From Bacteroidales bacterium (GTDB taxonomy: Bacteria > Bacteroidota > Bacteroidia > Bacteroidales > UBA1715), in assembly GCA_017618935.1 (NCBI GenBank), contig JAFZTG010000069.1, forward strand, positions 1 through 9,098: DNA of 9,098 nucleotides, in the 5' to 3' direction. Below, one piece after another: positions 303-9,006 of the stretch. Below the pieces are notes generated by a model that had not been told where the DNA came from, searched no databases, and saw only the letters and a list, made by a program, of their open reading frames with translations. How positions within the stretch are numbered: position 1 is the first letter of the stretch; every line of letters begins with the position of its first letter. Both the position numbers and the translations under genes were made by a program.

Positions 303-977
303 TCAATCATTTTTGTAAAAACAATCGTATTCCCATCGCAACGGATTTTGTTCTATATAAATGCCGATTTTGTTCTTTTCGTCTTGGTTACGGATAATAT
401 GGTCGTGGTATCGTGATTGCCACATAAATGGTATTCCATTTTGACGGGCAAATTTTGTGACGGAGGATTTGATGCCACGAATAATTGAACCCAAATTTTT
501 CGATTGTGGTCCAAATCGTTGTAGGGACGCAATGCGTGCGTCCTCATTATTATTCGTTTGATTATTCACGGACGCATTCAATACATTTTTCACGGACACA
601 TTCAATGCCTTTCTCACGGACGCATTCAATGCCTTTCTCACGGACGCATTCAATGCCTTTCTCACGGACGCATTCAATGCCTTTCTCACGGACGCATTCA
701 ATGCGTCCCTACAGATGGTATCGCGAATATATACAATCAGATGAACATGATTTGGCATAATCACATACAATGGTATTGAAACATCGCCTCCACGAATTGT
801 TTCGGTATTTTCTATCTGCATTTTCAACCATTCCCCCACAACGGTCAATTGCATTTGTCCGTCGTGAATTTCGCCGAAATAATGTTCTCGGTTCTTGGTG
901 CAAATGGTGACAAAATATTCAGCACCATTGTAATCGTGCCATTTCGCACGGGGTGTTTTGCGATTGCGGATATTCAT
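303..977 (-). CDS. REP-associated tyrosine transposase (RAYT, IS200-like Y1 family)
   Basis: A 224-aa Y1-type HUH transposase, the class that nicks and joins single-stranded DNA at REP palindromes. The HUH motif is His77-Val-His79 in MPNHVHLIVYI. The likely catalytic tyrosine is Tyr190 in MWQSRYHDHIIRNQ, followed by the family-typical YIEQNPLRW near the C-terminus. The N-terminal part (about 11-50) has the usual YFVTICTKNREHYFGEI block. Between the HUH motif and the C-terminal helix (LGSIIRGIKSSVTKFA, 162-177) lies a foreign-looking stretch of about 64 residues (about 89-153), with six units of an eight-residue repeat of the type ALNASVRK. It is encoded by the REPIN-like insert at 520-713. 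Without it the protein would be about 160 aa, a usual size for the core family. All core motifs are present and the frame is open, so it may still be active, but a lengthened linker could also disable it. The ATG at 977 follows a plausible promoter at 1026-1033. Family assignment is confident; activity is not known. Confidence 0.9.
   Translation of the reverse strand: MNIRNRKTPRAKWHDYNGAEYFVTICTKNREHYFGEIHDGQMQLTVVGEWLKMQIENTETIRGGDVSIPLYVIMPNHVHLIVYIRDTICRDALNASVRKALNASVRKALNASVRKALNASVRKALNVSVKNVLNASVNNQTNNNEDARIASLQRFGPQSKNLGSIIRGIKSSVTKFARQNGIPFMWQSRYHDHIIRNQDEKNKIGIYIEQNPLRWEYDCFYKND
520..713. repeat. REPIN-like element inside the transposase gene
   Basis: The insert is bounded by a perfect 12-bp terminal inverted repeat: TGTAGGGACGCA at 520-531 and its reverse complement at 702-713. 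Each end also folds as a REP hairpin, GGACGCA-N5-TGCGTCC at 525-543 and 690-708. The inside is a short spacer followed by 24-bp tandem units. On the minus strand it is open in the transposase frame. No target-site duplication is obvious. Removing exactly 521-712 would create a TAA at the junction, so the pre-insertion sequence cannot be rebuilt from this copy alone. The first 85 bases recur at 1-85. Confidence 0.75.
570..713. repeat. 24-bp tandem repeat, six units
   Basis: Units begin at 570, 594, 618, 642, 666 and 690, exactly 24 bases apart. The three units at 618, 642 and 666 are identical; the first two differ by few bases. The last runs into the right terminal REP palindrome. Each unit starts with GGACGCATTCAATG, that is, one arm, the loop and part of the second arm of the REP hairpin, so the array probably arose by repeated duplication of the right REP. 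Because the period is a multiple of three, copy-number changes keep the transposase frame. On the minus strand it encodes the repeated octapeptide ALNASVRK. Confidence 0.9.
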
Positions 978-1108: not shown

Positions 1109-1178
1109 CCATGTAAAAAATCGGTACGAAAAAGATTATCGGATTTTACAAGATATATGAATATCATAGATATAGAAA

Positions 1179-1556
1179 ATGAAAGTTCCAGAAAAATACT
1201 ATGACGAAAAATTCAATTTCAAAGGTCAATGGGATATGCCATCAACCTGCGGATTGAAAGTGTTGGATTACAACGGAAAGAAACTTGTGATTGTGACGGA
1301 ATTATACCAAGACAATCCCGGGACATCAGTAACATACGCGGGAGCGTCGTTGGCGAACCAAATTTGCGAAGCGAAAGGTTTCAATGTGAACGACATTCTT
1401 TATATAGAATGCAATCCCGACACAAGTTCAAAACTATCGTTTTACGATGAAGAATTTTTCCAAGTAACGTTTGACATTGTTGACGGAAAATTTGCGGGAA
1501 CGCCAAAATACAAACAACTTTCGCAAGAAGAAGCAAAAGAAATGATTACGCTATGA
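1179..1556 (+). CDS. Conserved-looking hypothetical protein, 125 aa
   Basis: I cannot assign a function. The product is a compact soluble protein without signal peptide or membrane segment. Its first part is rich in aromatic and glycine residues (KFNFKGQWDMPSTCGLKV), followed by a strand-rich block KKLVIVTELYQDNPGTSV at about 34-51. The middle (about 53-83) alternates helix and strand, with a Cys at 62 and another at 77. The C-terminal third is acidic and ends in a helix (QLSQEEAKEMI). It opens the operon: its TGA overlaps the ATG of the esterase gene (ATGA), so the two are probably translationally coupled. The start at 1179 is the first in-frame ATG; an ATG at 1156 is in another frame and stops soon. 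The ordered alternation of charged and hydrophobic residues makes a real gene very likely. Confidence 0.8.
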   Translation: MKVPEKYYDEKFNFKGQWDMPSTCGLKVLDYNGKKLVIVTELYQDNPGTSVTYAGASLANQICEAKGFNVNDILYIECNPDTSSKLSFYDEEFFQVTFDIVDGKFAGTPKYKQLSQEEAKEMITL

Positions 1557-2536
1557 GACGTTTTTTGTCACTACTCAGTTTCTTTGTTTTTTTAAGCCAA
1601 ATATCTTTCTCCCAATACGTTACACGTTGCAAAGAAGACGGTTGCATATCAAAAGTTGCCCCTTGGCAATATGTGCATAGCGTAACATCGAATGGAAAAG
1701 TAAAAAAGACGAAGGAAACCACGCGTATTTACACGTTTTTACCGACAAACTACAGCAAGGAAGATAAAAAGGTACCAGCTGTAATTATCTGCCCCGGAGG
1801 TAGTTACCACCATCTTGGGATGAAACACGAAGGGTATCAGGTGGCGCAATGGTTTGCACAAAACGGTTATGCCGCATTTGTGCTTCGCTACCGTGTGAGC
1901 AGCCACGGATACCATCACCCTGCCATGATTCAGGATTTGCAGCTGACCATTGCTCTCATAAAAAAATTTGGCAACGACTGGATTGACACTACTCGAATCG
2001 GAGCGATAGGATTTTCGGCTGGCGGCCATTTGGTTTTGCACAGCGGCATTGAAAAGCAGAATTACATAAAGAATGCATTTCCCGCTTCCGAAAAATACGG
2101 TCTGCGCCCCAACTACATTATGGCGATTTATCCCGTGGTTTCAATGGAAGACAGCATTGTGCACCAGAAATCACGTAAAAATCTTCTTACGAAGAAATAT
2201 ACGGAAAGCGACATTCACCAATTTTCCATCGAGCAAAACATTCCCGACGACATGCCTCCGACCTTTGTGCTTGCCTGCACCGACGACGACGTGGTTGACG
2301 TGCGGAACAGCCGAGCTCTCTGGAAATCACTGAAAGAAAAACAAACATCTTATTTATACGACGAAATACAAACAGGCGGTCACGGTTTTGGAATGTACAA
2401 AAACAAGAGTGAATCGACAAAAGATTGGAACGAAAAACTATTGAAACCGTGGCTTGACTATCCACAAGAAAGAGCCAAAGAATTTCAATCTTTTTTTAAA
2501 TCCTATAATAATCTTGTAAAACCCGATGAACAATAA
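1553..2536 (+). CDS. Exported alpha/beta-hydrolase, acetyl-esterase / acetylxylan-esterase type
   Basis: A 327-aa serine hydrolase of the lipase/esterase alpha/beta fold. Residues 1-20 form a classical signal peptide (MRRF, then a Leu/Phe-rich core, then FSQ), so the enzyme is probably periplasmic or secreted. The oxyanion region is CPGGSYHHLG (80-89), the place where relatives have HGG. The nucleophile elbow is GFSAGGH with Ser155. The acid is in CTDDDVVDV (Asp244 or Asp245), and the catalytic His is His277 in GGHGFGMY. This order and spacing fit the BD-FAE / acetyl esterase family, whose members remove acetyl or related groups from plant polysaccharides. The actual substrate cannot be read from the sequence. 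The gene overlaps its upstream neighbour by 4 bp and its downstream neighbour by 11 bp. The C-terminal tail from about 305 is charged and probably outside the fold. Confidence 0.88.
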   Translation: MRRFLSLLSFFVFLSQISFSQYVTRCKEDGCISKVAPWQYVHSVTSNGKVKKTKETTRIYTFLPTNYSKEDKKVPAVIICPGGSYHHLGMKHEGYQVAQWFAQNGYAAFVLRYRVSSHGYHHPAMIQDLQLTIALIKKFGNDWIDTTRIGAIGFSAGGHLVLHSGIEKQNYIKNAFPASEKYGLRPNYIMAIYPVVSMEDSIVHQKSRKNLLTKKYTESDIHQFSIEQNIPDDMPPTFVLACTDDDVVDVRNSRALWKSLKEKQTSYLYDEIQTGGHGFGMYKNKSESTKDWNEKLLKPWLDYPQERAKEFQSFFKSYNNLVKPDEQ

Positions 2537-3428
2537 CAAGCCACTCGGTCATATAGCGATATTTCTTGCCTACACCATTTTTGGGTTCAACATCATCACG
2601 TGCAAGAATCTTGTGTCGTTTGGCGTTGTCTCCCCTATCGGAATTTTCTTTTTACGAGCATTGGGAGCAACTATTTGTTTTTGGTTAGTTTCATTGTTTC
2701 TTCCGAAAGAAAAAGTTGAAAAAAAAGACTTGCCGAAAATTTTTCTTGCGTCGATGCTGGGACTGTTTCTCACGCAGATGAGTTTTCTCAAGGCAATGAC
2801 AATCACCACACCAGTGGATGCGGCAATCATCACCACACTTACGCCTGTATTCACCATGTTTATTGCCGCCATTTTCTTGAAAGAACCCATCACGTTCAAA
2901 AAAGCAGGCGGTGTGGCACTCAGTTTTATAGGTGTTATCTTATTGATTTTGAACAGCGTACATACACCAAACGGAATTGAGCACAGTCATCCGTTGGGTT
3001 TATGTTTAATGATTTGTAACTGTCTCTTTTTTGCCCTGTATTTAGGTGCGTTCAGACCTTTGGTGCAAAAATACGGCACCATCACGTTTATGAAATGGAT
3101 GTTTTTGTTTTCAATGCTTGTTGCCATTCCGTTCAATATTGGCGAGATGGCAACAACAGATTATAGTTTGCTCACGTCAGAGTTTATGTGGAATTTGGCG
3201 TTTACGGTGATTTGCGCCACGTTCATCGCCTATTTCCTTGTTCCCATCGGGCAAAAAAATCTACGACCGACCATTGTGAGCATGTACGCATACGTGCAAC
3301 CGTTTATTGCGGCAATTGTCAGCATAATCATCGGAATGGACGTGATGACTTGGCAGAAAATACTTGCCGCAATCCTTGTTTTTTCAGGAGTTTATCTTGT
3401 AAATAAAAGTAAAGCGAAAGAAAATTGA
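2526..3428 (+). CDS. EamA / drug-metabolite (DMT) superfamily transporter
   Basis: A 300-aa inner-membrane protein with about ten hydrophobic helices arranged as two EamA repeats (about 8-143 and 157-293). The length is typical of the family. The first repeat ends in the characteristic block TPVDAAIITTLTPVFTMF then LKEPITFKKAGGVALSFIGV (about 96-140). The second repeat shows the matching SMYAYVQPFIAAIVSIIIG and WQKILAAILVFSGVYLV. Family members export small molecules such as amino acids, or act as uptake permeases; the substrate here is unknown. The ATG at 2526 lies 11 bp inside the esterase gene, indicating translational coupling, and the ATG begins right before the first membrane segment, which supports it. 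It is the last gene of the operon; no clear terminator follows, but an 86-bp gap does. Confidence 0.9.
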   Translation: MNNNKPLGHIAIFLAYTIFGFNIITCKNLVSFGVVSPIGIFFLRALGATICFWLVSLFLPKEKVEKKDLPKIFLASMLGLFLTQMSFLKAMTITTPVDAAIITTLTPVFTMFIAAIFLKEPITFKKAGGVALSFIGVILLILNSVHTPNGIEHSHPLGLCLMICNCLFFALYLGAFRPLVQKYGTITFMKWMFLFSMLVAIPFNIGEMATTDYSLLTSEFMWNLAFTVICATFIAYFLVPIGQKNLRPTIVSMYAYVQPFIAAIVSIIIGMDVMTWQKILAAILVFSGVYLVNKSKAKEN

Positions 3429-3460
3429 TAACTTGTGTATAAATTCGTCTATTTACTTTT

Positions 3461-3488
3461 TTTGAAAACATAAAAACGATTTATTTTG
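3461..3488 (+). promoter_or_regulatory. Weak candidate promoter for transketolase
   Basis: TTTG (3461-3464) is followed after 16 bases by TTATTTTG (3481-3488), which differs from TAnnTTTG at one position. The spacing is short. A start near 3495 would leave a leader of only about 20 bases before the ATG at 3515. Read-through from the upstream operon is an alternative. Confidence 0.35.
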
Positions 3489-3514
3489 CACCAGATTTAC
3501 ATAATGATAGTAAA

Positions 3515-5557
3515 ATGAAAAACATTTCAGAACGTTCGGCCGACAATATGCGTATTCTCGCGGTTTCAATGGTCGAAAAAGCAAAATCCGGTCACCCAGG
3601 AGGTGCAATGGGCGGCATGGATTTCATCTCCGTTTTATACTCAGATTTTCTTCAATACGACCCAACCGACATGGCATGGGCAAACCGTGACAGATTTTTC
3701 CTTGACCCAGGTCACATGTCACCGATGCTGTATGCGACTTTGTGCATGGTTGGAACGCTTTCCATAGACGATTTGAAAAACTTCCGTCAATGGGGAAGCC
3801 TGACTGCCGGACACCCTGAAGTAAACCACAAAATTGGTGTTGAAAACACGTCGGGACCGCTCGGACAAGGTCATACGATGGCTGTAGGTGCGGCTATTGC
3901 AGAGAAATTCCTTCGCGCTCGTTTCGGCGAATGGATGAAACACAAAATCTACGCGTTCATTTCCGACGGTGGCATCCAAGAGGAAATTTCGCAAGGCGCA
4001 GGCCGTATTGCAGGTCACCTTGGGTTGGACAACCTCATTATGTTCTACGACTCCAACGACATTCAACTTTCTACCCACACCGACGCAGTTTCGAGCGAAG
4101 ACACCGCTATGAAATACGAATCGTGGGGATGGAGAGTCATCACTATAAATGGAAACGACCACGACGAAATCCGCAAGGCGTTGCAATGGGCAAACGAAGA
4201 AACGGGAAAACCATCGCTGATTATTGGAAAAACAACGATGGGTAAAGGTCTGCTCGATGCCGAAGGCAAATCGTTCGAAGGACAGACTTCAACTCACGGA
4301 CAGCCTGTAAGCAAAGCTGGCGCTTCTGTTGAAAAAACTATTCTCAACCTCGACGGAAATCCGAACGATCCGTTCGCTATTTTCGACGACGTAAAACAAT
4401 TTTGGAAAAACGTCAACGAAAATAAAATCAAAAACGCACAAAAACGTAAGGCAGAACAAGCGGAATGGGAAAAGGAAAATCCTGAATTGGCGAAAAAACT
4501 TGCTCAATTCTTATCGGGAAATATCCCAGCCGACATTGATTTCGCAAGCATAGAACAAAAACCGAACGTGGCTACCCGTGTTGCTTCAAGAGCGGTTCTC
4601 GGTTACTTTGCCGACAAGATTGAAAATATGATTTGTTCGTCTGCCGATTTGAGCAACAGCGACAACACCGACGGATTCCTCAAAAAGACGCAGGATATTA
4701 CCAAAGACGATTTTTCTGGAAAATTCCTCGAAGCTGGCGTTGCCGAACTGACAATGGCTTCAATTATGAACGGTATCGTGCTTCACGGCGGATTGTTCAC
4801 CGCATGCGGCACATTCTTCGTATTCTCGGAATATATGAAACCAGCAATGCGTATGTCGGCATTGATGGAACTGCCTGTTAAATATGTATGGTCGCACGAT
4901 GCGTTCCGCGTTGGCGAAGATGGTCCTACCCACCAGCCAATTGAACAGGAAGCGCAAATTCGCTTGATGGAACAGGTTTACAACCACAGCGGAAAACGCA
5001 GTTTTCTCGTTCTCCGTCCAGCCGACGCACAGGAAGCAACGGTTTGCTGGGAACTTGCCATGAAAACAAACGACCGTCCGACTGGCTTGATTTTCTCTCG
5101 CCAAACGATCAACGACATTCCTGCAAAACCAGGGTCAACACGATATGCCGATGCACAAAATGCGAAATTCGGTGCGTATATTGTAAAAGAAGCACAAGGC
5201 GAAGCCGACGTTATTTTGGTTGCCAACGGTTCCGAAGTCAGCACAATTTACGATGCGTCGCTCATTCTCGAAAGCAAACACGGCTTGAAAGTTCAAGTTG
5301 TTTCCGCTCCGTCGGAAGGCTTGTTCCGTGACCAAAGCAAAGAATATCAGGAAAAAATTCTTCCTTCTGGAAAACCAATTTACGGCGTAACCGCAGGACT
5401 TTCAATCAATCTGCAAGGACTTGTGGGGGCAAAAGGTAAAATCTGGGGCTTGAACCACTTCGGCTACTCCGCACCATACACCGTACTTGACGAAAAGTTC
5501 GGTTACACGGCGGAAAATATTGTAAATCAAGTAATTGAATACTTGAAGGAAAAGTAA
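3515..5557 (+). CDS. tkt: Transketolase
   Basis: A complete 680-aa thiamine-diphosphate enzyme that moves two-carbon units between sugar phosphates in the non-oxidative pentose phosphate pathway; cytosolic. Domain order is the usual one: ThDP-binding (PP) domain about 1-330, pyrimidine-binding (PYR) domain about 350-525, C-terminal domain about 540-680. Visible motifs are SGHPGGAMGG (His27), DPGHMSPMLY (His67), TSGPLGQGH, and the cofactor motif ISDGGIQEE through DSNDIQLS (Asp151 to Asn181). In the PYR domain they are AELTMASIMNG with Glu411, the presumed activating glutamate, and WSHDAFRVGEDGPTHQPIE (His461, Asp469, His473). The cofactor motif has Ser-Asp-Gly instead of the textbook Gly-Asp-Gly; I believe this is usual in Bacteroidetes. 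The gene is richer in GC and more regular in codon use than the genes to its right, consistent with a chromosomal housekeeping gene. A strong hairpin follows 15 bases after the stop. Confidence 0.98.
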   Translation: MKNISERSADNMRILAVSMVEKAKSGHPGGAMGGMDFISVLYSDFLQYDPTDMAWANRDRFFLDPGHMSPMLYATLCMVGTLSIDDLKNFRQWGSLTAGHPEVNHKIGVENTSGPLGQGHTMAVGAAIAEKFLRARFGEWMKHKIYAFISDGGIQEEISQGAGRIAGHLGLDNLIMFYDSNDIQLSTHTDAVSSEDTAMKYESWGWRVITINGNDHDEIRKALQWANEETGKPSLIIGKTTMGKGLLDAEGKSFEGQTSTHGQPVSKAGASVEKTILNLDGNPNDPFAIFDDVKQFWKNVNENKIKNAQKRKAEQAEWEKENPELAKKLAQFLSGNIPADIDFASIEQKPNVATRVASRAVLGYFADKIENMICSSADLSNSDNTDGFLKKTQDITKDDFSGKFLEAGVAELTMASIMNGIVLHGGLFTACGTFFVFSEYMKPAMRMSALMELPVKYVWSHDAFRVGEDGPTHQPIEQEAQIRLMEQVYNHSGKRSFLVLRPADAQEATVCWELAMKTNDRPTGLIFSRQTINDIPAKPGSTRYADAQNAKFGAYIVKEAQGEADVILVANGSEVSTIYDASLILESKHGLKVQVVSAPSEGLFRDQSKEYQEKILPSGKPIYGVTAGLSINLQGLVGAKGKIWGLNHFGYSAPYTVLDEKFGYTAENIVNQVIEYLKEK

Positions 5558-5571
5558 TATTTTTTCTTGTT

Positions 5572-5599
5572 CCATTTCTTTCGGCGGCGAGAGAAATGG
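5572..5599 (+). terminator. Strong hairpin after transketolase, probable terminator
   Basis: CCATTTCTTTCG and CGAGAGAAATGG pair over 12 positions, with one T-G wobble, around a GCGG loop. It begins 15 bases after the transketolase stop. The T-run lies before the stem (about 5560-5566) and only a weak run follows (TTTT near 5611), so it is not a textbook intrinsic terminator. It may instead protect the 3' end of the mRNA. Confidence 0.6.
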
Positions 5600-5635
5600 G
5601 ACATAATAGGTTTTACACGACGATCGTAGATAATC

Positions 5636-5710
5636 CTGAACAAATTCATCTGCCCCTCTCTAAAATCCTATCTTTTATTTAGGATAATTCCCTAATTTTC
5701 AGTATATTTG
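5636..5710 (+). promoter_or_regulatory. Shared promoter module, copy A (LRR gene)
   Basis: The module ends with TATATTTG (5703-5710), a perfect match to the Bacteroidetes -7 element. Its last 40 bases (5671-5710) are identical to 7850-7889 in front of the 112-aa gene. Its left part shares CTGAACAAATTCATCTG (5636-5652) and TCTCTAAAATCCTA (5657-5670) with copy B. An inverted repeat, ATCCTA (5665-5670) and TAGGAT (5680-5685), sits just upstream of or over the place where the -33 contact would fall, a good position for an operator. No TTTG is seen at -33, so the promoter may need an activator or a dedicated sigma factor. Confidence 0.65.
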
Positions 5711-5785
5711 TAATTGGACTTATTTGAATAAATAATTCTTACTTTATGTAATTAATTGCGTAATAAAGAAAAAACTTGTACGTGT

Positions 5786-7189
5786 ATGGAACAATGGACA
5801 GACGAATTTGGTGCTAAGTTTGAAAAAGATGATAACGGTGCAATATCTTTACTAAAAGTACCTGAAAACATAACAGAATATGCCATTCCTGATTTTGTAA
5901 CGAAAATTGGAGCATTAGCATTTAGTGGTCGTAGAGGGTTAACAAGTGTTTCTATACCAAATTCGGTGACGAAAATTGGTTGGGGAGCATTTTCAGACTG
6001 TTGTCACCTCACAAACATTACAATTCCTGACTCAGTAACGGAAATTGGGGCATCAGCATTTGAATTTTGTAAAGAAATCACAAAAATCATTATTCCGAAG
6101 TTGGTAACAATAATTGGAGATAGTGCATTCGAAGGATGTAGCAAACTTACAGGAATTATTGTAGATGCTGATAATCAAATTTTTTCAAGTGAAAATGGTT
6201 TGTTGTTGAATAAAGATAAGTCAGCGGTACTCTATTGCGGAGAGGGACTTACAACAGTTTCTATTCCAGATATGGTAACAGAAATTGGAAATACAGCCTT
6301 TTATAGATGTCTTGGACTAAAAAACATAACTATTCCAAAGTCCGTAACAAAGATAGGAGAAAAAGCCTTTTCTGGTTGTTCAGGTCTAAAAAGCATTTCT
6401 ATTCCTGATTCAGTATCAGAAATAGGAGTTGCTGCATTTGCTAGTTGTTCAGGACTTACAAACATTGTTATCCCGAATTCGGTAACAAAAATTGGTGGAA
6501 GTGCCTTTTATGGTTGCAAAGGGCTTACAAGTATATATATCCCAAATTCTGTTACGAAAATAGGGAAAAATGCATTTTGTGGTTGCTGTAATTGTACAAA
6601 CATAGAGGTTGAAAGAGATAACACTGAATATATTTGTAAAGATGGCAACCTCTTTAATAAACAAATGACATGTTTACTTTTTGTAAAAAGAAATGTTTCC
6701 ACATATCAAATTCCTGATTCGGTAACAGAAATCGGAGATGCGGCATTTTGTGATTGCATTGGGCTTACAAACATAAATATCCCAAATTCTGTTGCGAAAA
6801 TAGGAAATAATGCATTTCGTGGTTGTACAAATCTTACAAGTATTACGATTCCTAATTCAGTAACAGATATTGGAAATTCTGCCTTTAGTGATTGCACAAA
6901 CATTACAAGCATTACTATCCCAAATTCGGTAACAGAAATCGGAGGTGCTGCGTTTTGTGGTTGCTCAAGCCTTACAAACATTACTATTCCGAATTCGGTA
7001 ACAAAAATTGGAAGAAGAACTTTTGGTTTTTGTACAGGTCTTACAAATATTATTATTCCGGATTCGATAACGGAAATTGACTATGATGCATTTGAATGTT
7101 GTGATAATCTTGTTGTTCATCTTTCTTCAAAATCCTCGTTAAAAGACGATGTTTTTTATCCTTGCACGGTAATAAGAGATTTGCCATAA
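5786..7189 (+). CDS. BspA-like leucine-rich-repeat protein without signal peptide
   Basis: A 467-aa protein built almost wholly of the 23-residue LRR type known from Treponema and Bacteroidetes surface proteins (BspA; LRR_5). The unit reads IPNSVTKIGxxAFxGCxxLTNIT. I count 15 units from about residue 34 to about 445, interrupted by two non-LRR islands of about 33 residues each: one after unit 4 (DADNQIFSSENGLLLN...) and one after unit 9 (ERDNTEYICKDGNLFN...). The islands resemble each other in pattern. The N-terminus (MEQWTDEFGAKFEKDDNG) has no signal peptide, and the C-terminus (CTVIRDLP) shows no sorting domain or anchor. The protein is therefore predicted to be cytosolic, although many relatives are exported. 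LRR solenoids bind other proteins; the partner is unknown. ATG at 5786 is preferred to an in-frame TTG at 5756. The gene is AT-rich compared with transketolase and stands behind copy A of the shared promoter module. Confidence 0.9.
   Translation: MEQWTDEFGAKFEKDDNGAISLLKVPENITEYAIPDFVTKIGALAFSGRRGLTSVSIPNSVTKIGWGAFSDCCHLTNITIPDSVTEIGASAFEFCKEITKIIIPKLVTIIGDSAFEGCSKLTGIIVDADNQIFSSENGLLLNKDKSAVLYCGEGLTTVSIPDMVTEIGNTAFYRCLGLKNITIPKSVTKIGEKAFSGCSGLKSISIPDSVSEIGVAAFASCSGLTNIVIPNSVTKIGGSAFYGCKGLTSIYIPNSVTKIGKNAFCGCCNCTNIEVERDNTEYICKDGNLFNKQMTCLLFVKRNVSTYQIPDSVTEIGDAAFCDCIGLTNINIPNSVAKIGNNAFRGCTNLTSITIPNSVTDIGNSAFSDCTNITSITIPNSVTEIGGAAFCGCSSLTNITIPNSVTKIGRRTFGFCTGLTNIIIPDSITEIDYDAFECCDNLVVHLSSKSSLKDDVFYPCTVIRDLP
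5885..7123 (+). repeat. 69-bp coding repeats of the LRR gene
   Basis: The LRR units are visible in the DNA as a recurring block of about 69 bases. The most constant part is ATTCC-A-ATTCGGTAACA-AAATTGG, with GCATTT and GGTTG following. Units 10-14 (about 6710-7060) are the most alike, which suggests recent duplication or recombination within the gene. Such repeats allow unit number to change in frame. Confidence 0.8.
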
Positions 7190-7295
7190 TTTTCTTCCAA
7201 TGTGCAAAAGTTGAACTTTGAAAAGAGAAGTTAATACAAATCTTTACATTTTTCCTTGATTGTATGTGAATAGACCACACACACTTTAGGTTTTT

Positions 7296-7346
7296 TGTTC
7301 ATCGTGTTGAACATATTTTATATCAAGATGTTCATTATACTGAACA
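7296..7346. promoter_or_regulatory. Pair of TGTTCA-N6-TGAACA dyads, operator candidates
   Basis: Two perfect inverted repeats, at 7296-7313 and 7329-7346, share both 6-base arms but not the 6-base spacer. Their centres are 33 bases apart, about three helical turns, so two dimers could bind on the same face. They lie about 60-100 bases upstream of the TATATTTG of the 113-aa gene. The geometry, two half-sites separated by 6 bases, is like that of Crp/Fnr-type sites, but the half-site differs and no regulator can be named. The right arm of the second dyad is part of the block shared with copy A, where only this half-site remains (5637-5642). Confidence 0.55.
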
Positions 7347-7410
7347 AATTCATCTGAAAACCATCTCTAAAATCCTACCTTGCGCTTAAGACAAATTCCC
7401 AGTATATTTG
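7340..7410 (+). promoter_or_regulatory. Shared promoter module, copy B (113-aa gene)
   Basis: It carries CTGAACAAATTCATCTG (7340-7356), TCTCTAAAATCCTA (7364-7377), AATTCCCAG and TATATTTG (7403-7410). The part between ATCCTA and the -7 element is diverged and about 7 bases shorter than in copies A and C, so the TAGGAT arm of the inverted repeat is lost. The -7 element overlaps the in-frame TTG at 7408, which excludes that codon as the start. Confidence 0.6.
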
Positions 7411-7452
7411 TACGTAGTTTGTATTTTTATTAACATTTTAAATAAGCGTATT

Positions 7453-7794
7453 ATGGAAGCTGTAGATGAAAAGGGCGATTTGATTGCATTTTTTGATGAT
7501 GATTTTCTTTTTTTCTGTGCAATACAGAAAAAAGTAGTGACGTTGCTTAAGTTTCTTGGTTTTAAGGATGAAGACAACACGTGGGATCTATCACATAGTA
7601 TGTTTGTGAATGAGAACGGTCGTGACAATGGATTTTGTAATCAATTCACATCATGTTTAGAAGAACCGTTTACCAAAGATGAAATAGAACTTGTTCTCAA
7701 AAAGGTGGGATTTCGTGAAGATGGCATTCTCTTCAAACTGCGTGATGAATTGTATGAAAAGAAAATCACGAGTGAAACGAAATTTCTTGACTAA
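7453..7794 (+). CDS. Hypothetical protein, 113 aa
   Basis: I do not recognise a family. From ATG 7453 the product is an acidic soluble protein. Its N-terminal helix and strand region contains DLIAFFDDDFLFFCAIQKKVV (split by a phenylalanine-rich core), then LLKFLGFKDEDNTWDLSHSMF. The C-terminal half looks helical: FTKDEIELVLKKVGF, then LRDELYEKKI. The two stretches ending in LGFKDED and VGFREDG may be a weak internal duplication. No signal peptide or membrane helix is evident. The open frame extends upstream to a TTG at 7408, but this lies inside the -7 promoter element, so ATG 7453 is preferred. The gene follows two operator-like dyads and copy B of the shared module, which points to its own regulated transcription. 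Confidence 0.7.
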   Translation: MEAVDEKGDLIAFFDDDFLFFCAIQKKVVTLLKFLGFKDEDNTWDLSHSMFVNENGRDNGFCNQFTSCLEEPFTKDEIELVLKKVGFREDGILFKLRDELYEKKITSETKFLD

Positions 7795-7837
7795 AACTTG
7801 TGGTACGTATACCTTTAACATCGTACTGCAAAAATCA

Positions 7838-7889
7838 TCTAAAATCCTCTCTTTTATTTAGGATAATTCCCTAATTTTCAGTATATTTG
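7838..7889 (+). promoter_or_regulatory. Shared promoter module, copy C (112-aa gene)
   Basis: Bases 7850-7889 are identical to 5671-5710 of copy A, and TCTAAAATCCT (7838-7848) extends the match with a single difference after it. The module ends in TATATTTG (7882-7889), and the ATG follows 26 bases later. It keeps a 5-bp inverted repeat, ATCCT (7844-7848) and AGGAT (7860-7864). The left block with TGAACA seen in A and B is absent. Confidence 0.65.
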
Positions 7890-7915
7890 CACCATTAACA
7901 CTAAAATAAAAAAAT

Positions 7916-8254
7916 ATGAAAAAGTTTATTCCAATTTTGGTTTTACTGGTTTGTTGTAACACATGCGTTTGTCCAATAACGATTATTGATAAAACAAGGT
8001 TTTATGCACATGGATATTATAAAATAAATGGCGTACAATTGGGCGCAACTGATCAGGAAGCATACGAAAACATAACCATGATTCTTTCCGATGTGAAGAA
8101 ATGTGGTTGCACCGAAATATGTGTCGGCGATATGTCGTATGTGTTTTACCAAAAAGGTAAAATGATTTGCGTCGATATATTGGATGACGACTATGAAGAT
8201 GACGATTACGATTATAAAAAAGAACTTAAAATGCTGAAAGGCATGTTGTGGTAA
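7916..8254 (+). CDS. Small exported hypothetical protein, Cys-rich with acidic tail, 112 aa
   Basis: No family is recognised. The N-terminus MKKFIPILVLLVCCNTCVC is a signal-peptide-like segment with two Lys and a hydrophobic core, so export across the inner membrane is likely. Several Cys sit near its end, but none is preceded by the small residue usual for a lipobox, so lipoprotein status is doubtful. The mature part has a strand-rich section (TRFYAHGYYKINGVQLGAT), a helix (QEAYENITMILSDVKK) and a CGCTEIC cluster. These are followed by VFYQKGKMICVDI and a strongly acidic DDDYEDDDYDY tail before a short Lys-rich helix. The CGC-x3-C group could form disulfides or bind metal; this is inference. 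It stands behind copy C of the shared promoter module and is 74 bp from the next gene. Confidence 0.72.
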   Translation: MKKFIPILVLLVCCNTCVCPITIIDKTRFYAHGYYKINGVQLGATDQEAYENITMILSDVKKCGCTEICVGDMSYVFYQKGKMICVDILDDDYEDDDYDYKKELKMLKGMLW

Positions 8255-8328
8255 CCAACAATCATATAAAAACTCCAGGTTTTGTATCGTTGAATTAAAA
8301 GAATGTAAAACAATTAAATGTTGAGGTT

Positions 8329-9006
8329 ATGAGACAAGATTGTGTATGGATTGGTACAAAAGGTGCATTAGAAGAATATCAGTTGCAGTTTTGTAAAGAA
8401 TATTGCATACGTCATAATTCTTTGACGGGTGGTGCGTTTAAATATGACGGAAAGAATCATACAAAAAGGGATTATGTGCCACTTGACGAAAAAGAATATA
8501 ATCGTTTGGCAGATTGTGTTCGTGATGTTTACAAAGGTGTAGAGATAAGCAAGGAGGATATGGATAGTCTTGTAAAGGCTGCACACGCAAATAATTGGCT
8601 TTTATATAGACGAGGTGCAGAACCAAATAGTACGTACACACATACACACGCAGACTATATTCGTTTCTTTCAGTTTGGTACTAAAATAGGGCAAAAGAAC
8701 TTTGAAGATATGAATTACGAAGTTGCACAAAATGTTGCTATCAATCACCAAATATATGATAAGAATGGAATGCCAGTCATTACAAAACTAAACGCAAAGA
8801 ACGGAAAGGAATGTATTGAAAGATTGAGCGGTAAAAGTAAAGAACCGCTTTATATCTTTGATGGAAGATTGCCAAAAAACAATGTTGCAGTAGAGAAACA
8901 CGACACGTTTATTGTTTCGTTGGGGAAATTTGTTGGTGGATGGATTGGGTTATTATTGATTTATGCTGTGATACCTATTCTTTTGTTACGTACTTGTTTT
9001 CATTGA
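8329..9006 (+). CDS. Hypothetical protein with C-terminal membrane anchor, 225 aa
   Basis: I do not recognise the family. Residues 1-195 are soluble and charged, and contain several Cys (5, 22, 26, 63, 162) and a THTHAD stretch at 104-109. One strong hydrophobic helix lies at about 201-221 (FVGGWIGLLLIYAVIPILLL), followed by only RTCFH. With no signal peptide this fits a tail-anchored inner-membrane protein whose bulk faces the cytoplasm. The ATG at 8329 is preceded by TTGAGG at close distance, a weak Shine-Dalgarno-like sequence. No TAnnTTTG promoter is seen in the 74-bp gap upstream, so it may be transcribed with the 112-aa gene. Low GC and many A/T-ending codons match the neighbours from 5.7 kb onward and differ from transketolase. 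Confidence 0.72.
   Translation: MRQDCVWIGTKGALEEYQLQFCKEYCIRHNSLTGGAFKYDGKNHTKRDYVPLDEKEYNRLADCVRDVYKGVEISKEDMDSLVKAAHANNWLLYRRGAEPNSTYTHTHADYIRFFQFGTKIGQKNFEDMNYEVAQNVAINHQIYDKNGMPVITKLNAKNGKECIERLSGKSKEPLYIFDGRLPKNNVAVEKHDTFIVSLGKFVGGWIGLLLIYAVIPILLLRTCFH

Follow-up and report, generated by a model that had tools for sequence, protein, structure and literature searches.

The window, that is, the whole stretch of DNA analysed here, comprises 9,098 nucleotides of contig JAFZTG010000069.1 from a Bacteroidales bacterium, and this text deals with a short promoter module that occurs three times behind its tkt gene. The copies, designated A, B and C, precede in turn the genes for a leucine-rich repeat (LRR) protein of the LRR_5, BspA-type kind (5786..7189), a 113-amino acid orphan (7453..7794) and a 112-amino acid protein whose N-terminus, judged by eye, looks exported (7916..8254). 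A fourth gene (8329..9006) encodes a 225-amino acid accessory protein and has no module copy in front of it. The genes and modules all lie on the forward strand, and the four products gave no cross match at an expectation value (E) of ≤1. An earlier inspection by a model that saw only the letters and their reading frames (the sequence-only reading) had described three promoter copies with a common end ahead of the starts of unrelated genes. The copies are real, as the alignments and the pattern matches below indicate, and conserved promoter DNA does stand before unrelated genes.

The cores of module A (5659..5710) and module C (7838..7889) are identical at 51 of 52 bases, base 12 being the sole mismatch and the last 40 bases forming the exact run that had been reported. 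The likeness stops sharply on both sides, the 10-base flanks being unlike. In a scan of places separated by 60 bases or more, which excluded pairs with the first place before 760 (the site of 24-bp repeats) and pairs internal to the LRR gene, A and C (24 overlapping registers) are the sole pair to reach 42 or more identities in 52. The core of module B (7366..7410), placed by pattern match and alignment, starts with TCTAAAATCCT and ends with AGTATATTTG as in A and C, with 7 bp less between. TCTAAAATCC is exact in all three modules, at a distance from TATATTTG of 44 in A and C and 37 in B. The further sharing claimed for A and B is found at 5630-5652 and 7334-7356 (forward strand), where 21 of 23 bases are identical. 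The pattern AAAATCCTNNCTTN{16,30}AGTATATTTG, drawn up from the three copies themselves, matches three times in the window and never in 200 shuffles.

Each module ends in TATATTTG, which is the -7 element TAnnTTTG (5703-5710, 7403-7410 and 7882-7889), and leaders of 75 (A), 42 (B) and 26 (C) bases lead from it to the start codon. Module B has TTG at -33 (7380-7382, 20-bp spacer); module A has a weak TTA (5679-5681, 21-bp spacer), as does C. PMC7366714 describes promoters of the Bacteroidetes primary sigma factor (sigma-ABfr) in Bacteroides as having TAnnTTTG at -7 and TTTG near -33. Compared with that description, the modules are alike in TATATTTG and, for B and the copy in the relative G001 described below, in a TTG 20-21 bp upstream of it; they are unlike in the TTA of A and C, and their conserved lead with TCTAAAATCC is additional. 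Judged by these elements A, B and C are putative core promoters of the Bacteroidetes primary-sigma type, which would be expected to fire. The inverted repeat ATCCTA-N9-TAGGAT, to which the sequence-only reading had drawn attention, is present in A (5665-5685), but its arms are 5 bp in C and it is broken in B and in the G001 copy. As RNA it folds about as its shuffles do (z -1.25; 21 of 200 as good), and it was rejected as a regulator site because it is not conserved. Rfam gave no match.

The block and the islet in related genomes

By 31-letter words the nearest relative is G001 (25%); by the tkt region G003 is closer, with 93.6% identity over 4.4 kb (window 1176-5550). The likeness of G003 to the window ends with tkt, behind which it has a 433-amino acid open reading frame (ORF) that is read as a putative M28-type peptidase. 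Since the match stops at tkt, the stretch with the LRR, 113-, 112- and 225-amino acid genes is an islet which is absent at this place in kin that are 94% identical.

A convincing copy of the block was found in one of 60 relatives, at C43 28006-28059 of G001, with 87% identity over 54 bases and 45 of 52 bases in common with A (locus L001, 1501-1552). This copy has TCAAAAATCC where the modules have TCTAAAATCC, again 44 from TATATTTG, and TTG as its -33 box. It also precedes an LRR gene of the same kind, the product starting with MEQWTD. In the gap between the G001 promoter and the LRR start lies a 42-base piece (C43 28104-28145) that is 90% identical to 7761..7802 of the window (forward strand), where the orphan gene ends with its final codons and stop at the 3' side. 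The order in G001 is thus promoter, orphan tail, LRR, and that in the window is promoter, LRR, promoter, orphan, promoter, exported protein. Most simply, an ancestral order of promoter, orphan and LRR would have been duplicated and deleted differently in the two.

Some match to the block at E ≤0.1 was obtained in 25 of the 60 genomes, and only that of L001 spans most of the query. The others are short: 17-33 bases for those found among the remaining 59 relatives, and 37 bases for a second, gene-internal match in G001. Twelve short matches were viewed, several of them within ORFs, some resembling plain promoters and some ambiguous, and those in the 59 other relatives were judged not comparable to the G001 copy. 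The pattern with up to 3 mismatches has no match in G001 because the L001 copy differs by more. A pattern scan of the genome_contigs collection, from which the strain's own or very near records may be excluded, gave seven stretches. One (L039) is apparently G001's contig, and the other six are from Prevotellaceae, Chitinophagales, Coprococcus, Calothrix, Tamlana and a Bacteroidetes metagenome-assembled genome. Viral contigs contained no match to the pattern, and window 5560-8328 had none among plasmids and phages.

A candidate operator upstream of B and the DUF4143 arrays

Upstream of module B the palindrome TGTTCA-N6-TGAACA occurs twice (7296..7313 and 7329..7346, 33 bp apart), these being its two matches in the window against a mean of 0.01 in 200 shuffles. 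Of the second site, module A has only the right arm, TGAACA, and the bases that follow (CTGAACAAATTCATCTG) within the block which it has in common with B; module C has none. G001 has one such site, at C43 9553, some 18 kb from its promoter copy, and it is the first of three that are spaced 32 and 33 bp, the right arm being TAAACA in the other two. This array precedes TATATTTG and then the gene for an AAA_14/DUF4143 ATPase (AAA_14, E 1.8e-26; DUF4143, 26.3 bits, under the cut-off of 28.1, or 28.5 when counted with its neighbours in the family search), which matches the PADLOC candidate PDC-S01. The two-site stretch of B aligns with the G001 array with 39 identities in 53 columns and a score of 23, against a maximum of 18 in 500 shuffles and of 15 for the other 86 ATPase upstreams. 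No pieces of the G001 ATPase were found in the window (tblastn, best E 3.9).

Module B resembles the DUF4143-type arrays in its repeated 6-N6-6 palindrome, its 33-bp period and its position upstream of TAnnTTTG, but its repeat score is below the array cut-off given below; its palindrome arms match those of the leading site in the G001 array. It is unlike them in that a 113-amino acid orphan lies downstream instead of an ATPase gene, and unlike the G001 array in having two sites instead of three, none of them adjoining the -7 box. Because two sites occur together and resemble one array, we propose B as a candidate operator of the DUF4143-ATPase type which now stands ahead of an orphan. This double palindrome, the best operator candidate of the locus, was missed in the sequence-only reading.

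A family search for DUF4143 gave 90 matches in seven genomes of the genus (G001-G007), 5 to 17 per genome, and 87 distinct 150-bp upstreams were kept (L113, L115-L202), the fragment G002:C2, L117 (no usable ORF) and one duplicate being excluded. With an array defined by a 16-base window that recurs with 14 or more bases identical, arrays are present in 73 of the 87 at lags of 21-23 (19) or 32-34 (54), L165 being a simple short-unit repeat, and in none of 113 upstreams of other ORFs from the same genomes, a control set that is small next to the whole genome. In an earlier control four of 25 neighbours of the ATPase genes had arrays, two of these being the L165-type simple repeat and two the same arrays seen via divergent genes; a narrower first test (lags 26-40, shuffle p ≤0.02) had given 55 of 87 against 4 of 25 neighbours. 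The 87 upstreams fall into 59 clusters, and in 47 of these half or more of the members have arrays, at lags of 22, 23, 32 and 33. Judged by eye, repeat words vary between clusters and some arrays extend past the -7 box. Repeated palindromes, in a looser test, were found in 29 of 87 DUF4143 upstreams against 4 of 113 controls. Outside the genus (43 loci, of which L203 has no ORF) the array effect is weak, with 9 of 41 DUF4143 upstreams against 2 of 33 controls, or 9 of 42 against 2 of 32 if L245 (score 12) is moved from the controls. Many of the DUF4143 genes from outside the genus (L204-L244, e.g. L211, L214 and L218) seem by eye to have, instead of an array, a single long palindrome that spans the promoter.

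DUF4143 proteins are expected to have a DNA-binding winged helix-turn-helix part. In the paper library searched we found no paper on the function of the family, and a mention only in work on Thermus Argonaute. It is conceivable, though we would put it forward only tentatively, that the DUF4143/AAA_14 ATPases, of which some are candidate defence genes, regulate themselves, each binding private tandem operators at two or three helical turns round its own promoter. Module B would then be an array of this type that an orphan gene has acquired, and the orphan would answer to an ATPase whose gene lies at another place in the strain's genome. More important than the promoter copies is the by-product that in this genus a widespread ATPase family has helically spaced tandem promoter repeats with gene-specific words; the arrays offer a direct lead to the possible binding targets of these proteins.

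Origin of the promoter copies

On balance we think it probable that A, B and C are primary-sigma core promoters which descended from one promoter by short local duplications in the accessory islet behind tkt, A and C being the youngest pair and B an older relative with a two-site operator, and that the genes share basal strength and not a switch. The likeness of A and C spans spacer and boxes and the flanks are unlike, as a copied segment would give, and the youngest event would have been the copying of 52 bp, sharply bounded at either end. We regard B as the oldest form, with two sites where A retains one half-site and C has lost or never had any; this sequence of events is inferred, as is the regulator. 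The core block would recruit the primary sigma factor at all three places, and its copying would have put a common promoter before the LRR gene and that for the exported protein. B could in addition be bound at both palindromes, the likely protein being a DUF4143-type ATPase, a prediction to which the G001 array gives concrete form; A and C would be free of such control. Since each promoter would drive its own gene, what they have in common would be basal promoter strength rather than a switch, and only B would answer to the regulator of the palindromes. With one copy and an orphan relic in G001, and none comparable in 59 relatives, duplication and deletion within the islet are a better fit than either a regulon or a mobile promoter that has dispersed. 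The copies suggest that accessory genes gain a ready promoter by local duplication and reshuffling, the relative keeping another arrangement.

Several observations weigh against this account. The -33 box of A and C is TTA instead of TTTG, and TCTAAAATCC, retained in all three modules, might serve as a binding site. The relative that carries the block is one only, and its identity to the window is 87% in the block against 79% in tkt and 65-75% in LRR coding stretches; a block that is better kept than its surroundings is in line with some selective constraint on it, or with its having been transferred later. The count of copies covers the window and the relatives' genomes, and the strain may have others elsewhere in its own genome. 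As to the operator, the best lag in B is 33, but its 16-base repeat score of 12 is below the cut-off of 14, although the palindromes are exact and the G001 C43 array itself scores 13 at lag 32. TGTTCA-N6-TGAACA is not enriched over the genus, with 7 sites in 7 genomes against 6 for a control pattern, and five of the seven are within ORFs of at least 100 amino acids. The palindromes of B may also belong to the LRR mRNA, as its terminator or as another RNA element, as the stretch folds well as RNA (z -3.3; 200 shuffles, none as good). Its stems, however, are A+T-rich with no T run following, and the terminator listing has none there.

The sequence-only reading had suggested a common regulator, and a small local regulon, in which such a protein would bind TCTAAAATCC(T) ahead of the -33 box and control the three genes jointly, has in its favour the retention of that element, which lies 44 bp before the -7 box, or 37 bp in B. 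We nevertheless consider it unlikely. No operator candidate is whole in all three modules, the common part being core promoter plus TCTAAAATCC and the palindromes being whole only in B; the spacing in B is off by 7 bp; and the identity of A and C includes the spacer, which a regulator does not need. The block search that had been advised gave one clear copy when run in G001, and the block thus does not mark a regulon there.

Its other suggestion, cassettes that spread with their promoter, is supported locally, with three copies in 2.3 kb and some of the pieces reordered in G001, but dispersal was not seen in the relatives. That the block is a promoter or small cassette moving itself over the genome is, in our estimate, improbable. 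Putative mobile promoters are reportedly the subject of Matus-Garcia et al. (2012) and van Passel et al. (2014). The modules are like these in having near-identical promoter DNA, here with sharp ends, before non-homologous genes, and unlike them in that the copies are local rather than dispersed, as far as the relatives show; the concept is cited in PMC8049555. One clear copy in G001, seven stretches in genome_contigs of which one is apparently G001's, and none in viral contigs speak against it. As regards a miniature inverted-repeat transposable element or small transposon, neither terminal inverted repeats nor target duplications were seen at the ends of A and C, by eye or among the 25 of 63 inverted pairs (arms of at least 14) in the repeat list.

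Finally, it is very hard to believe that the AT-rich promoters of Bacteroidetes simply converged, as TATATTTG-like sites just before ORFs elsewhere (e.g. L008, L011 with TATATTCG, and L012) and the frequency of TANNTTTG in the window (17 vs 11.5, no clear enrichment) would allow, since the 51 of 52 identities refute this for A and C and the three pattern matches are without a counterpart in the shuffles, though convergence could explain part of B's likeness.

Other features of the islet and window

The LRR_5 protein has 467 amino acids counted from its ATG, starts with MEQWTD as does that of G001, and is assigned by Pfam with an E of 4.3e-111; no signal peptide was seen by eye. Database matches of the three smaller islet proteins were sought among 5.8 billion proteins. 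The 113-amino acid orphan matches only itself and has no Pfam domain at E ≤0.1, the 112-amino acid protein matches two entries (99% and 51%), and the 225-amino acid protein has 8 relatives. Searches of related genomes, made without a positive control, found the three in 0 of 60, 0 of 60 and 0 of 31, respectively. Structure models of the 113- and 112-amino acid proteins are poor (predicted local distance difference test 52 and 47). Two relatives of the 225-amino acid protein, P0005 and P0010, are listed with the same length of longest contig (107228), and the protein may belong to a local multi-copy family.

Between tkt and module A, 3' of tkt on the forward strand, lies a 16-bp hairpin (5568..5603; G-U pairs counted) of -23.5 kcal/mol and z -6.9. 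It is a possible tkt terminator, and is not among the terminator-like sites of the terminator listing. At the other end of the window a transposase-like ORF was noted (303-977, reverse strand, with 1-150 and 521-713); it is IS200-like, its Y1_Tnp score of 20.8 bits being below the cut-off of 23. The 24-bp repeats lie in frame within this ORF, with like words beside it, and we take the arrangement to resemble a pair of repetitive extragenic palindromes (REP) and REP-associated tyrosine transposase (RAYT), with the repeats inside the gene.
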